DNA of 64,000 bases from assembly GCA_005879315.1 (NCBI GenBank), contig VBLC01000038.1, positions 1-64,000 on the forward strand. Reading direction: 5' to 3'. Shown piece after piece: positions 28,369 through 37,077 of this stretch. The position numbers and the translations under genes are program-made. Source of the stretch: Deltaproteobacteria bacterium. GTDB lineage: Bacteria > Myxococcota > Myxococcia > Myxococcales > 40CM-4-68-19. Below the pieces are notes generated by a model. That model was not told the DNA's origin. It worked only from the letters and a program-made list of their open reading frames with translations, and ran no database searches. Numbering within the stretch: the first letter of the stretch is position 1; each line of letters opens with the position of its first letter.

Positions 28369-28672
28369 CGCGGAGTAGCCCCTGGGCCGCCTGCGGCTGC
28401 CGCGGCTAGGAGCTGGTCAAATAGCCGTGGTCGTTCTCGTTCTTGTCTTCGTGCTCGATGTCGAGCTCGTGCTCGTGCTCCTTTTCGTGCCCGATGTCGA
28501 GCTCGTGCTCGTTCTGATTCGGGTGAGTCGTTTTGGGCCCGAGGGTCTCAAAGTTGTACCGACGAAACCCGCGAACAAGCCCCGAGCACCGAACGGGAAC
28601 GACACCGAGCACCAAATCGAGCACGAGCACGAGCACGGCAGGTCACAGGCGCCAGCTGATAGGCATTTGGGG
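28369..28672. repeat. repeat-rich intergenic island between convergent genes
   Basis: No gene is supported in these 304 bp. A 36-bp unit starting GTGCTCGATGTCGAGCTCG at 28451 is repeated almost exactly at 28487 (GTGCCCGATGTCGAGCTCG), embedded in further CTCGTG/CTCGTT hexamers from about 28430. The complementary motif GAGCAC recurs in tandem downstream (about 28604-28636), so the two ends could pair as a long stem with about a 95-base loop. The other strand, if read, gives only Glu/His/Asn/Asp-rich low-complexity peptide. It sits where two transcription units converge. Confidence 0.75.
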
Positions 28673-31288
28673 TTAGGAGACCGCGCGCAGCTGCTGCTGC
28701 CGCCGCGGCACGCGCAGGATGAATTCGGCGCCCGGCCCCGGCCGCACTTCCAGCGAGCCGCCCAGGCTCTGCACCACCCGCCAGGCGATGGTCAGCCCCA
28801 GGCCCATGCCGCGGCCCGGCCCCTTGGTGGTGAAGAAGGGCGTGAAGATGCGCGGCAAGTCCTCGGCTTTGACGCCGGGGCCGTTGTCCTTGACGGTGAC
28901 GACGAGCGCATCGCCGTCGGCGAATCCGCGCACCTGCACATGGCCGCCTTGGTCGGGGCAGGCCTCGATGGCGTTCTGCACCAGGTTGCTCAACACCTGG
29001 TTGAATTCCTCCGGTACGCACTCGACCGTTCCGTCGCCGACGAGGTCCGTCTTGACGCTCACCGGGCGTCCCGTCGCCGGCAGCACCAGCGCCACCACCT
29101 CGCGGATGGCGGCGAAGACGTCGTGCGCGCGAATGTGCCGCGAGTACCCGGCGCGGCTGTAGCTGCTCATCAGCTCCACGGTGGAGGCGATGCGCTTGAT
29201 GCCGCTCTCGGCGATGTCGAAGAGCTCGTTCATCCGCTCGAAGAGAAGCGGCCGATCGCTGACCTTGCCTTCGAAGAGCGCCTTCACATCCAGCCGGACG
29301 CGCGCCAGGGCATTCTTCAGGTAGTTGAGCGGATTGTTGATCTCGTGGGCCAGGCCGCCCGCGACGATCTCCAGCGAGTCCATCCGCTGCGTGAGCACGA
29401 TGTCGGCGGTGGTGGTCTGCTGCTGCACCAGCGCCCGCGCGGTGGTGAGCAGCTCGCGCGGCGAAAACGGCTTCGCCAGGTACGCGTTCACGCCCGTCTC
29501 GAGGCCGGCGACGCGATCCTCGAGATCGCCGCGCGCGGTGAGCATCAGGACCGGGATGTGCCGCGTCTTCTCGTCGGCGCGCAGGCGGCGGGTCAGCTCC
29601 AGACCGTCGATGCCCGGCATCATCAGATCCGCCACCACCAGCGATGGCTGCTCGCGCAGCGCCATCTCCAGTCCCTTTTCGCCGTCGTCGGCGGAGATGA
29701 CCTTGAAATGCGTGCGCAGCGCGTTGTGCACCAGGCGGATGATGTCGGGCGTGTCGTCCACCACCAGCGCGAGGTGCGGCCGCTGGTCCTCGTCGGCGTC
29801 GCGCGGCGAGACGCGGCGGTCGGTGGCCTCCTCGATGTCGATCAGCCGGTACTCGTCGCGCGCCGCCATCTGCACGGCGAAGTCCATCAATCCCCGGTCG
29901 CCGCCGCGGCTGCCGGCGGGCACGTCGCGCGTCGGGCCGCGACGTTCGAGGACCTCGGGAGCGAAGTGCTCGCGGTCCCGCTTCAGCTCGACGGTGAAGC
30001 GCGCGCCCCCGCTGCTCTCCGCCCAGATGCGGCCGCCGTGCAGCTCGACGATCTCCTTCGCCAGCGCAAGGCCGATGCCGGTGCCGCCGTAGCGGCGCGT
30101 GCCGGCCATATCCACCTGGTAGAAGCGCTCGAAGATCTGCACCGCCTTGTCGGGGGGAAAGCCCGGCCCATCGTCCTGGACCAGCACCTGCACCGTGGGG
30201 CCCGTCTGGCGGAGCCGCACCATCACGTGTCCGCCGGGCGGCGTGAACTTGGTGGCGTTCGACAAGAGGTTGAGGAAGACGCGCTCGATCCGTTCCAGGT
30301 CGCACCAGATCGGGCAGGTCTCGACCTCGGGCTCGATCTTGAGCTCGATCCCCTTGCGCTGGGCGAGCGGCAGCACTTGCGCCACCAGGCCGCGCAGGTA
30401 GTCGGCGAGATCGTGCTCCGCGACCTTGAGGCGCAGCTTCGACTCCTCGAGGCGCGAGAGGTCGAGCAAGTCCCCGATCATCTTCAGGAGCTTGAGCCCG
30501 CTGCGGAACATCGACTGGAAGGTGGCGAGGTGCGCCGGCGAGAGCTCGCCCATTTCGCCCTCGAGAATCAATTCCAGAGGCGCCAGCACCATCGCCAGCG
30601 GCGTCTTGAACTCATGGGTGATGTTGGCGAAGAGCTGCGACTTGAAATGGTCGAGCTGCTTGAGTTGCTCGTGGGCGGCCTCCAGCGAGGTCGTGGTCTC
30701 CTCGAGCTGCACCTGGTTCAGCACCTGCTCGCGCTGCGAGCGGTAGAGGACGATCTGTCCGGTGCCGCCCACCACCGCGATGCCGAGGAGGAAGGCAAGG
30801 TTGGAGAAAGCGTCCAAAAGCGGCGTCACCTGCCCGACCAGCAGGTTGGGCACGACGAAGCTGGCAAGGATCAGCGAGTGCGTGATCAGCACCACCCGAG
30901 CGTTCCAGACGAAGAGGAGGCCGGTGCCGAGGATCACCAGCGACAGTCCAGCGTAGTAGGGCGAGGCCAGACCGCCGAGAAAGATGGTCATGGCGCTGAT
31001 GCCCCCAGCGACCAGGAGCGTGTAGGCGGAGGAGACGAGGTCGGAGTGTCGCTCGAGAAAGCGGCTGTCGAGCAGGCGGAACATCGCCACCGAAGCGATC
31101 AGCACCGCCGCGCGCGTGGACCAGAGGATGGGCAACGCGGCGCGCGGCGCGATCAGGTAATCGAGCGCGCCGAAACAGGGATAGAGAGCGAGCGTGATCC
31201 AAAGGCCGATGCGGATGCGCCGGCGGTTGCGTTCCAACAGCCAGCGCGCCCAGCGCCCTTCGAACGCGGCAGGCCGCGACTCGGTCAC
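28673..31288 (-). CDS. membrane hybrid histidine kinase with two kinase cores flanking a receiver
   Basis: An 871-residue protein starting at GTG 31288, which overlaps the stop of the upstream methyltransferase gene (GTGA). Residues 25-183 contain about six membrane helices with no clear ligand domain. A coiled coil leads to kinase core 1: His225 in 'NITHEFKTPLAMV', N-box 'NLLSNATKF', G-boxes 'DDGPGF' and 'GGTGIGLAL'. A receiver spans about 505-622 with phospho-acceptor Asp554 in 'VVADLMMPG'. Kinase core 2 has His648 in 'GGLAHEINNPLNY' and ATPase motifs 'VQNAIEA', 'DNGPGV' and 'GLGLTIAW'. The order HK-REC-HK implies internal phosphorelay between two catalytic cores. It is the distal gene of a coupled three-gene operon. 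Confidence 0.93.
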   Translation of the reverse strand: MTESRPAAFEGRWARWLLERNRRRIRIGLWITLALYPCFGALDYLIAPRAALPILWSTRAAVLIASVAMFRLLDSRFLERHSDLVSSAYTLLVAGGISAMTIFLGGLASPYYAGLSLVILGTGLLFVWNARVVLITHSLILASFVVPNLLVGQVTPLLDAFSNLAFLLGIAVVGGTGQIVLYRSQREQVLNQVQLEETTTSLEAAHEQLKQLDHFKSQLFANITHEFKTPLAMVLAPLELILEGEMGELSPAHLATFQSMFRSGLKLLKMIGDLLDLSRLEESKLRLKVAEHDLADYLRGLVAQVLPLAQRKGIELKIEPEVETCPIWCDLERIERVFLNLLSNATKFTPPGGHVMVRLRQTGPTVQVLVQDDGPGFPPDKAVQIFERFYQVDMAGTRRYGGTGIGLALAKEIVELHGGRIWAESSGGARFTVELKRDREHFAPEVLERRGPTRDVPAGSRGGDRGLMDFAVQMAARDEYRLIDIEEATDRRVSPRDADEDQRPHLALVVDDTPDIIRLVHNALRTHFKVISADDGEKGLEMALREQPSLVVADLMMPGIDGLELTRRLRADEKTRHIPVLMLTARGDLEDRVAGLETGVNAYLAKPFSPRELLTTARALVQQQTTTADIVLTQRMDSLEIVAGGLAHEINNPLNYLKNALARVRLDVKALFEGKVSDRPLLFERMNELFDIAESGIKRIASTVELMSSYSRAGYSRHIRAHDVFAAIREVVALVLPATGRPVSVKTDLVGDGTVECVPEEFNQVLSNLVQNAIEACPDQGGHVQVRGFADGDALVVTVKDNGPGVKAEDLPRIFTPFFTTKGPGRGMGLGLTIAWRVVQSLGGSLEVRPGPGAEFILRVPRRQQQLRAVS

Positions 31289-32733
31289 TCCCGGCGGATC
31301 TCCACGAATGGGTTGACGCCGCTTTCCTCTTCGAGGATCTGGTGCCGCGCACACGGCGCCGCCCGCCGGGCGATCTCGAGCAGCTCGGCGCGCGAGCGAT
31401 AGATCAAGTGCCATTCCATGTGGTGCTCCATGTACCAGCGGCTGGGATTCTCCGGCACCATGTTGGCGATCAGCGCGCGCCCGCCCGCAGCGAGCTGTCC
31501 TTCGAGGTTGCGGGCGAGGCCCACCGCCGTGCTCTGGCGCAGGTAATCGAAGAATCCATTCGAGTAGATTAGATCGAAGGGGCCGAAGGACGTGAACAAA
31601 TCGGCGTCGCGAAGCAAGCGCTTGACCGATTCGTGCAGGTAGACGACCCTTGCCTTGCGCGCGTCGGCGATGGGCTTGAGGCGGCGGTAGGCATAGGCGA
31701 GCGCGCCCTTGTCCTGGTCGAAGATGACGATTTCGAGCGGCGCGGGCAGCTCGCGGATCTCCTGGAGCAGCTCTACCAGTTCCTGCGCCGGCCCGCAGGC
31801 GACGGCCAGCACCTTGAGGGGAGCGCGGCGCGAGTCGATCATCTCGCGCAGCTGACGCTTGACCAGGTCCTTGCGGTGTCGCACGGCGCAGGCGGCGCGG
31901 GTCTGGTCGAAGGAATAGCTGATCGCCTTGGCGAACAGGTTCGGCCCTTCGAAGGGCTTTTCGTAGATGAAGCGCATCACTTCGTAGTCGCCGGGATAGC
32001 CGAACGGCTTCTGCCAGCAGCGATGCACCGAGGGCGACTGCATGAAGAACTCGTGCAGGTGGCGCCGCGACCAATTGACCAGCGCGGGCATGTGCGCAGG
32101 CGGGACCGAGCGGACGGCTGCGTCGATCTCCTCGGTCGCCTTCACCACGTCGGCCACGAAGGTGTTGCGGACCTTCTCCATCAGCGCTGCGCGCGCCGGC
32201 GAGCCTTCGCCGTGCAGCACATGCCAGGGCAGATCCCGCTCCAGCTTGGCGAGCTGCTTCTCGGCGTCCTCGAGATAGAGGCGCAGCTCGGAGACCAGCA
32301 TCTTGAAGTGGTCGTGGCCCGGCACGCGCCAGGGGGCGGGCGGCTGCGTGCCGGCCTTGATGGCGCGCAGATCGAGCACCTCGTCGATGGGGAGAAGGAG
32401 CCCCTCGAAGGAGACGCCGACGATGGCGACGCCCGAGACCTCGCGCACCGAGCCGACCCGGGCCTCGCCCTTGAAGGGGACGTGGTCGTCGAAGCGGACG
32501 GCGAGGTTGTCCAGGCGGTCGCCGACCGAGACCCGCAAATCCTTGGGCCACTCGAAGGCGGCTCCGTTCTGCGAAACGTCGAGCAGCGCGCAGCTGCGAC
32601 CGAGCAGCTGCACCTCGGCGTACAGGGGCGAGAGGTCGGTGGCGCGGTAGCGGTGCGGCCGGAAGAAGACTTCCCGGCCCTGCGGCCCTTCCAGATCCTC
32701 GTAGTTGCGAACTCGATGCAGCGGCGCGGTCAA
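31285..32733 (-). CDS. PilZ domain - SAM-dependent methyltransferase fusion
   Basis: About 482 residues. The start is TTG 32733: the preceding stop TAG overlaps an AGGGGGT ribosome-binding sequence four bases upstream, and no ATG precedes the first domain. Residues 15-120 form a PilZ module with 'ALLDVSQNGAAFEW' (DxSxxG) and Arg-rich residues before it. A helical middle (130-260) follows. The C-terminal half (270-480) is a class I methyltransferase: motif I 'LKVLAVACGPAQELVELL', acidic 'IVIFDQDKGALAY', and 'FDLIYSNGFFDYLR'. PilZ binds c-di-GMP in many proteins, so methyl transfer may be second-messenger controlled (inference). Target molecule unknown. Confidence 0.85.
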   Translation of the reverse strand: MTAPLHRVRNYEDLEGPQGREVFFRPHRYRATDLSPLYAEVQLLGRSCALLDVSQNGAAFEWPKDLRVSVGDRLDNLAVRFDDHVPFKGEARVGSVREVSGVAIVGVSFEGLLLPIDEVLDLRAIKAGTQPPAPWRVPGHDHFKMLVSELRLYLEDAEKQLAKLERDLPWHVLHGEGSPARAALMEKVRNTFVADVVKATEEIDAAVRSVPPAHMPALVNWSRRHLHEFFMQSPSVHRCWQKPFGYPGDYEVMRFIYEKPFEGPNLFAKAISYSFDQTRAACAVRHRKDLVKRQLREMIDSRRAPLKVLAVACGPAQELVELLQEIRELPAPLEIVIFDQDKGALAYAYRRLKPIADARKARVVYLHESVKRLLRDADLFTSFGPFDLIYSNGFFDYLRQSTAVGLARNLEGQLAAGGRALIANMVPENPSRWYMEHHMEWHLIYRSRAELLEIARRAAPCARHQILEEESGVNPFVEIRRE

Positions 32734-32743
32734 GTGACCCCCT
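32734..32743 (-). promoter_or_regulatory. ribosome-binding site for TTG start
   Basis: On the minus strand the stop codon TAG of the receiver-kinase gene runs into AGGGGGT. Four bases later comes the TTG start of the PilZ-methyltransferase. This strong site decides the unusual start and indicates translational coupling. Confidence 0.65.
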
Positions 32744-33932
32744 AATTTGCGATGGCCAGCCGGATCTCGAAGCGCGCGCCACCTTGCGGGCGATCGAGCA
32801 CTGCGATTTCGCCTTGATGTGAATCGACGATCAGCTTGGCCATGTAGAGGCCCATGCCCATCCCGTCGCCCTTGCCGGTGGCGAAAGGCTGGAAGAGCGA
32901 CTCGCGCAACTGCGGCGGGACGCCCGGCCCTTCGTCCTCGACGGCGAGGATGATCTTGCCGTCCATCCGGCTGGCTTCGATGCCGACGCGGCGCCACTGC
33001 GCGGTGGCCTGCAGCGCATTTCGCACCAGATTGAGCATCACCTGGCAGAGCTTCTGCCGGTCGCCCATCACGCAGGGCAGATCCTCCGCCACGCGCAGCT
33101 CCACCTTGTGCATGCGGTAGTTCAGATCCATCCGGGCGATGGCGACCGCGTCCTTGATCACCGCCGAGGGAGGCAGGAGCTGCCGGTCGAGAGTGAGGCT
33201 GCCGCCGCGGGCGAACTGGTGCATCGCCTCGAGCGTCTGGATCAGGTTGTTCACGCCCTGCATGCCGACCTGCACGCTCTCGCGGACGTCGGCCGCGATC
33301 TCGCCCTGCTGCAGGACGCTCTCGACGTAGCCGAGGCTGATCATCAGATTGCGCAGATCGTGGATCACGCCCGCCGCCAGCCGGCCCATGGTGCCGAGCC
33401 GCTCCATGTGCAAGAGGTGCCGCTGCGTGCTCTTGATCTGCTCGAGCGAGGCATCGAGCTCCTGCGTGCGCCGCGCCAAGAGCGCGACCAGCCGCTGGAT
33501 GGCGCGCGCCTGGTAGACGTGCTCACTGGCTTGCCGGACGGCTTCGAGAATGTCGTCGGGCTGCCACGGCTTCTTGAGGAAGCGGAAGACGCGCGCGCGG
33601 TTGATGGCCGAAATCAGCGCCGGCGGGTCGGTGAAGCCGGTGAGGACGATGCCGGCGACGTCGGGCTTGAGCAGGCGAAGCTGCTCGAGCAATTCCACGC
33701 CGGTCATCTCCGGCATGCGCTGGTCGGTGATGACGACGTCGAGGTCGTTGTTCTTGGCGATCTCGAGCGCGTCGCGGCCGGAGGTCGCCTCATGCACCTT
33801 GTAGCCAGCCTCGAGGAAATTGCGCAGGACGGTCAGGTTGGGGCGCTCGTCGTCAACGATGAGGATCCCGCGACTCCGGGTATCCCCAACCCCGTGTAGC
33901 GCCATCAGCGATTTCAGTCCGTCGTCCAGCAT
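32742..33932 (-). CDS. receiver-histidine kinase (response regulator with kinase output)
   Basis: About 396 residues, soluble. An N-terminal receiver (21-140) has acidic pocket 'VDDERPN', Asp70 in 'VVITDQRMPEMTG', Thr98 and Lys121 in 'FLKKPWQP'. A coiled coil of about 30 residues follows. The kinase core has His191 in 'GVIHDLRNLMISLGY', N-box 'NLVRNALQAT' and G-boxes 'DEGPGVPP' and 'GMGMGLYMAK'. The start ATG 33932 has GGGGAG just upstream; a longer frame to 34043 lacks support. It is the first gene of the operon with the PilZ-methyltransferase and the membrane hybrid kinase. REC-HK proteins typically relay input from another kinase, here possibly the hybrid. Confidence 0.88.
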   Translation of the reverse strand: MLDDGLKSLMALHGVGDTRSRGILIVDDERPNLTVLRNFLEAGYKVHEATSGRDALEIAKNNDLDVVITDQRMPEMTGVELLEQLRLLKPDVAGIVLTGFTDPPALISAINRARVFRFLKKPWQPDDILEAVRQASEHVYQARAIQRLVALLARRTQELDASLEQIKSTQRHLLHMERLGTMGRLAAGVIHDLRNLMISLGYVESVLQQGEIAADVRESVQVGMQGVNNLIQTLEAMHQFARGGSLTLDRQLLPPSAVIKDAVAIARMDLNYRMHKVELRVAEDLPCVMGDRQKLCQVMLNLVRNALQATAQWRRVGIEASRMDGKIILAVEDEGPGVPPQLRESLFQPFATGKGDGMGMGLYMAKLIVDSHQGEIAVLDRPQGGARFEIRLAIAN

Positions 33933-34227
33933 GACTCCCCACTCTGGCTCGACGAGTCCGACCAGCAACTTTTCGGCCAATTCGGTAGTGGACAAATGGA
34001 TTTGGCCAGAAGTAGCCGAGACGAAGCAAGAGCCGGAAGACAAGCCCCTTGGGCTCGATCGCTGGCCGTTAATTAAATCAATGATGTTATTGATCTATTT
34101 GCCAAATATGCAAAAAGATACCTGAATTGGAATGCGTTGGAGGCAGCCGCCGCACCTCATACCAGTGCAATTTTCTCTGGCCGACGCACCATGGGCGCGA
34201 GACCAGCGATCGCTGGAGCGGGTCACC
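33933..34227. promoter_or_regulatory. AT-rich intergenic control region, operon promoter candidate
   Basis: A 295-bp gap ahead of the minus-strand signalling operon and after gcvP. A pocket at about 34066-34130 is strikingly A/T-rich against this G+C-rich background. It contains the inverted repeat ATCAAT / ATTGAT (34077-34082, 34089-34094), a TTAATTAA run, and TTTGC...GCAAA arms nearby. Exact promoter hexamers are not clear. The pattern suggests a promoter with operator-like symmetry for the three-gene operon. Confidence 0.45.

Positions 34228-37077
<2,850 letters not shown>

Follow-up and report, generated by a model that had tools for sequence, protein, structure and literature searches.

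A conserved myxobacterial operon with a PhcB-like methyltransferase and a PhcS-type sensor kinase: a candidate Phc-like signaling unit

The operon, its products and its conservation

The locus lies on contig VBLC01000038.1 of a Myxococcota genome (assembly GCA_005879315.1), of which positions 1 to 64,000 were analysed; this whole stretch is referred to as the window. On its minus strand, between gcvP (stop at 34228) and position 28673, three coupled genes run from 33932 to 28673. A encodes a receiver-kinase, B a PilZ-methyltransferase, and C a membrane hybrid kinase that has two kinase cores (Table 1). An earlier sequence-only reading had named and placed these genes, and gene calls and domain matches agree with it. 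It had also described stop/start overlaps (TAG running into a ribosome-binding site with a TTG start; GTGA) as tying the genes together, which is exact: the GGGGG ribosome-binding site of B directly follows the TAG of A. No sigma-70-like site was found in the stretch upstream of A. Just downstream of C, at 28426-28640, there are GC-rich CTCGTG-type repeats that recur every 12 bases, as well as a long inverted repeat that is imperfect (arms of 48 nt, 79%). One sequence from this stretch, CTCGTGCTCGTGCTC, has 10 occurrences in the genome. The stretch is possibly a terminator or a repeat element.

Table 1. Coordinates of the operon and its features in the window
Feature	Position	Strand	Details
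Gene A	32742..33932	(-)	ATG 33932 to TAG 32742, 396 aa
Gene B	31285..32733	(-)	TTG 32733 to TGA 31285, 482 aa
Gene C	28673..31288	(-)	GTG 31288 to TAA 28673, 871 aa
A/B junction	32731..32744	(-)	TAG of A, GGGGG ribosome-binding site, TTG start of B
B/C junction	31285..31288	(-)	GTGA, start of C overlapping stop of B
Intergenic stretch before A, richer in AT; probable promoter	33933..34227	(-)	
PilZ match in B	32398..32598	(-)	residues 46-112; DVSQNG at residues 52-57, no RxxxR
Methyltransferase region of B	31288..32034	(-)	residues 234-482; family motif KPFGYPGD, SAM motif ACGPAQE
PhcS-type membrane sensor domain of C	30674..31261	(-)	YYAGL motif
First kinase core of C	29975..30643	(-)	phospho-acceptor motif HEFKTP, H225
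Receiver domain of C	29441..29767	(-)	domain match
Second kinase core of C	28709..29401	(-)	HEINNP, H648

The A protein consists of a receiver (residues 23-133) and a histidine kinase core (HATPase 290-393). Pfam matched Response_reg and HATPase_c and did not find HisKA; a plausible phospho-acceptor is H191 in VIHDLRN. A has no membrane segment, and no DNA-binding domain was recognised in it. In C, a hydrophobic N-terminus is followed by HisKA-HATPase, a receiver and a second HisKA-HATPase. The membrane sensor domain had no Pfam match at all, either in C or in the other sensor proteins scanned.

B is built from an N-terminal PilZ domain, a helical linker and a class I SAM methyltransferase. 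On its own, window B scored 17.6 bits against PilZ, below the Pfam cut-off of 22.5 bits, in a match that begins at profile position 23. Each of the 15 aligned B orthologues has a PilZ match (best 1.1e-9), and the domain is real. The [DN]xSxxG motif is present as DVSQNG, its D-V-S and G being invariant in the 15 orthologues. RxxxR is absent from the aligned orthologues, which have FRP[HQR]R in its place. At one related locus (L046, genome G035) the sequence of B is partly N in the PilZ stretch.

In the AlphaFold2 model of B most of the methyltransferase domain has a pLDDT of around 90 and the PilZ part is poor. A fold search with this model returned class I methyltransferases, the best being 3ocj (Z 20.8, 250 residues, rmsd 3.3). 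The aligned orthologues conserve the SAM-binding motif ACGPAQE as well as the acidic residues that follow strand two. B thus has the Rossmann-like fold and the SAM motif of a class I SAM-dependent methyltransferase. The SAM-binding residues, on whose presence in a model the sequence-only reading had made itself depend, are retained in an intact fold. CheR matches were weak and below threshold in 6 of the 15 orthologues (best E 0.0032); none of the 15 had a CheR match above the cut-off, and CheR was absent from the listed matches of the window protein. These matches reflect the generic SAM fold. NCBIfam returned generic kinase matches only, all of them well short of the cut-off, and did not supply a useful name for B. 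PDB sequence searches with B, the enzyme-family profile and the membrane domain found no relative; nucleoporin matches covered the helical linker and were rejected, as they look like coiled-coil noise.

The sequence-only reading had proposed conservation of the trio as a check, and the trio is conserved. Among 179 Myxococcota genomes there are 16 loci besides the window with a B orthologue (50-71% identity), from the window's own family and one neighbouring family. Of the 15 related loci with enough contig sequence upstream, 13 have A immediately before B on the same strand; in 15 of the 16 loci, one short contig (L039) among them, C comes next after B. At L045 both partners of B are lost. In the 14 orthologous junctions compared, the start of C overlaps the stop of B or lies very close to it. 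Because both adjacencies are kept in relatives, the trio is not a chance arrangement. The window's own genome holds one methyltransferase of the B type and one membrane domain of the C type. A more distant A-like copy in divergent orientation was seen at L046 (4629-5750, G035). In the related Myxococcaceae-like family f6 the Myxococcus EspC model scored above its cut-off in 5/5 genomes, and in 0/14 controls, which points to a myxobacterial origin of the window.

Homology to the Phc system

A tblastn search of plasmids with B led to a methyltransferase gene of Paraburkholderia graminis, downstream of which lie genes for a kinase and two response regulators. Scanning genomes from this locus identified counterparts in Cupriavidus, Ralstonia, Paraburkholderia, Janthinobacterium, Hydrogenophaga and others. 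The order in the Burkholderiales loci read, including Cupriavidus necator and Ralstonia pickettii, is PhcB, PhcS, PhcR (receiver and kinase) and PhcQ, which is the order described for phcBSRQ (PMC8578825). PhcB makes methyl 3-hydroxymyristate or methyl 3-hydroxypalmitate, and PhcS senses that ester (PMC8578825, PMC11960443).

A window-lineage methyltransferase profile that contained no Burkholderiales sequence matched 80/80 Burkholderiales PhcB proteins with a median E of 2e-52 (range 1e-60 to 3e-29). When the B-lineage and PhcB profiles were aligned with hhalign, the probability was 100% (E 8e-52, 338 columns). A membrane-domain profile built from 13 trio orthologues matched 78/80 loci, always directly downstream of phcB and hence in PhcS (median E 3e-7, weakest 0.01). 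These profile matches show both the homology of B to PhcB and that of the membrane domain of C to PhcS; B is a PhcB homologue and a probable signal synthase. B and PhcB are only about 25-30% identical, and for this reason the substrate of B may differ from that of PhcB. The sequence-only reading had taken the arrangement to be unlike described pathways; this does not hold, given a PhcB homologue and a PhcS-type membrane sensor in C.

P. graminis PhcB has an R at position 22, the residue mutated in Ralstonia phcB R22C (PMC6989110), and the kinase histidine of P. graminis PhcS is at 233, close to the reported H230 (PMC11960443). P. graminis PhcS has six hydrophobic segments and C has several. 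In the C. necator PhcB model the N-terminus forms a beta domain of six strands (pLDDT about 85), the second of which contains residue 22. Pfam does not call this domain PilZ, and profile comparison of the PhcB N-terminus with the PilZ domain of B gave a weak match (probability 26%). Fold searches with the full-length models of B and PhcB were filled by methyltransferase-domain matches.

Similarities outside the enzyme and the sensor are less specific. A resembles PhcR in its predicted architecture, i. e. a soluble receiver and kinase with no DNA-binding domain. Among the Phc domains compared, the A receiver is nearest to the R. pickettii PhcR receiver (37% identical) and the second core of C is most like the PhcS kinase core; receiver and kinase similarities are generic, and as signs of kinship both can be suggestive only. 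The idea of C as a PhcS-PhcR fusion was dropped, since the domain comparison puts the second core of C nearest to PhcS.

Enzyme-sensor pairs and their outputs

The pairing of enzyme and sensor recurs across phyla. In the 179 Myxococcota genomes, 33 of the 39 methyltransferases found at E about 4e-30 or better have the membrane domain immediately downstream on the same strand, with 25-214 bp between the matches. Conversely, 33 of 43 membrane-domain matches sit directly downstream of a methyltransferase. Random placement would give such adjacency at about 5e-5 per gene; the loci are not independent events, because common ancestry of whole loci contributes.

The protein that carries the sensor varies. 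Outside the trio, 15 of the 17 Myxococcota sensor proteins scanned have a SpoIIE phosphatase, and the remaining two are a hybrid kinase (L048) and a class III cyclase. In the latter (L060, 5356-8247), a PhcB-type methyltransferase is directly followed by a membrane-anchored cyclase with a PhcS-type sensor domain. On a plasmid of the cyanobacterium Pseudanabaena the enzyme is accompanied by a kinase version and a response regulator, on the opposite strand. In Rhizobium, Ensifer and Sinorhizobium meliloti the membrane domain belongs to a GGDEF-EAL protein encoded divergently from the enzyme (Pfam named the domains for L072). These loci are on megaplasmids (L072, L170, L174, L175 and the weaker L171), with membrane-domain matches of E 9e-7 to 2e-4 in four loci and 0.07 in the fifth. 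The rhizobial pairing suggests that a signal may control c-di-GMP there.

In the methyltransferase tree the SpoIIE-linked clade and the trio clade each have a support of 100, and the Phc clade has 87. Output labels change 10 times on this tree, compared with 33 in shuffles, L066 being labelled as PP2C and L045 as a hybrid without a detected sensor neighbour. Across these loci enzyme and sensor stay constant and outputs change, as expected of a synthase-receptor pair.

Some copies stand apart. No sensor neighbour was detectable for the Myxococcaceae copies, L067, L045 and L068. In the Myxococcaceae (L153-L162) the methyltransferase copies, between one and four, are more distant and have no recognisable membrane-sensor neighbour. 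At L067 (3333-4475) a Myxococcota protein is 54% identical to P. graminis PhcB, and PhcS, PhcR and PhcQ were not found beside it; transfer of phcB alone would be a possible explanation. Six loci (L164, L165, L166, L167, L168 and L169) have PhcS-type membrane domains without a neighbouring methyltransferase, possibly receptors that listen to the signals of other cells.

Proposed function and comparison with known systems

Our preferred interpretation, with a probability of roughly 0.7, is that the trio is a Phc-like quorum-sensing unit in which B makes a diffusible methylated signal, C senses it and A is a PhcR-like partner. B would produce and the cell export a small methylated compound, by analogy a fatty-acid methyl ester, and the PhcS-type membrane domain of C would bind and detect this compound. 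The two kinase cores and the internal receiver of C would then pass the phosphoryl group on in a multi-step phosphorelay, with A as the soluble receiver-kinase partner. Signal production may be adjusted by the PilZ domain of B, whether or not c-di-GMP takes part.

The sequence-only reading had instead proposed that c-di-GMP, acting on PilZ, and phosphorylation jointly control the methylation of an intracellular target. Its structural part stands: the trio is coupled and conserved, the methyltransferase is fused to PilZ and has an intact SAM fold, and the other two are phosphorelay proteins. Joint control is not supported and we consider it unlikely. PilZ is found in 15/15 orthologues with an invariant DxSxxG, and in rhizobial relatives an enzyme of this family is paired with a GGDEF-EAL protein; yet the aligned orthologues have R-P-x-R instead of RxxxR, the operon contains neither a target nor a c-di-GMP enzyme, and the homologous PhcB makes a diffusible signal. 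Because RxxxR is absent while DxSxxG is invariant, c-di-GMP input through PilZ is possible but weakened, and binding of c-di-GMP by this domain is uncertain. Since B is PhcB-like and C is PhcS-like, the likely direction is reversed, i. e. methylation makes a signal that the phosphorelay reads. The two models are compatible if PilZ only tunes signal production.

It is more doubtful still that B methylates a membrane lipid or another envelope component and that C senses the state of the envelope and not a released signal. The substrates of PhcB are fatty acids, its products can stay in membranes, and the sensor domain is largely hydrophobic; however, PhcBS is reported as cell-density signaling with an extracellular compound (PMC8578825). 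Least probable is a CheR-like logic, in which B would methylate the membrane receptor or kinase next to it and so adapt its sensitivity. The close genetic linkage of enzyme and receptor and the sub-threshold CheR matches in 6/15 orthologues would fit. But these matches are weak (best E 0.003) and come from the generic SAM fold, there was no match to a chemoreceptor-type domain, methylation would have to be tolerated by several unrelated output domains, and PhcB, the experimentally studied member, makes a small-molecule ester.

If the Phc-like quorum-sensing interpretation is extended to all loci, a PhcB-type methyltransferase and a PhcS-type membrane domain would form a general synthase-receptor cassette across Myxococcota, Cyanobacteria and alpha- and betaproteobacteria. 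Its sensor would be joined to histidine kinases, double-core hybrid kinases, SpoIIE/PP2C phosphatases, class III cyclases and GGDEF-EAL enzymes, with PilZ tuning signal production in the window lineage. For this wider claim we regard the chances as even. Phc signaling has been described for Betaproteobacteria, where it controls virulence, and we found no report of PhcB-type systems in myxobacteria or with SpoIIE outputs in the open-access literature. Were the pair a true synthase and receptor, signaling of the methyl-ester type would be much wider, reaching social myxobacteria and rhizobia, and would control second messengers and phosphatases besides phosphorelays. The pair would then offer a set of receptors in which one shared sensor has different readouts, and identification of the ligand would become directly testable. 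The results also point to a role for the N-terminal domain of PhcB, which has been little studied and in which R22C, selected in experimental evolution, alters the cell-density response (PMC6989110).

Three known systems can be compared. With PilZ-domain c-di-GMP effectors, B shares an N-terminal PilZ match with DxSxxG; it differs in lacking RxxxR and in being fused to a methyltransferase of the signal-synthase type. The alpha-hydroxyketone systems Lqs and Cqs (LqsA-LqsS, CqsA-CqsS) are alike in general logic: a membrane sensor kinase that detects a lipid-like signal is encoded next to the synthase. This logic is described in part in PMC10653808, and the synthase there is a pyridoxal-phosphate enzyme, not a methyltransferase (PMC10653808). 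The closest system is phcBSRQ of Ralstonia, Cupriavidus and Paraburkholderia. Both have a homologous methyltransferase after a beta-rich N-terminal domain, a homologous membrane sensor on a kinase encoded beside the methyltransferase gene, a tight operon and, in predicted architecture, a soluble receiver-kinase without a DNA-binding domain. The output of the phc system goes through PhcA, a regulator of the LysR type. In contrast to phcB-phcS-phcR-phcQ, the window order is A-B-C, i. e. receiver-kinase, synthase, sensor. C has an additional kinase core and receiver that PhcS lacks, the window-lineage synthase has a Pfam-recognisable PilZ domain, and no PhcQ-type gene is adjacent to the trio. Moreover, the phc cluster is described as restricted in distribution within Betaproteobacteria (PMC10653808), and the window operon belongs to another phylum. 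Because gene order and PhcQ fail, we do not file it as a strict phcBSRQ operon; judged from its sequence, it is a Phc-like variant.
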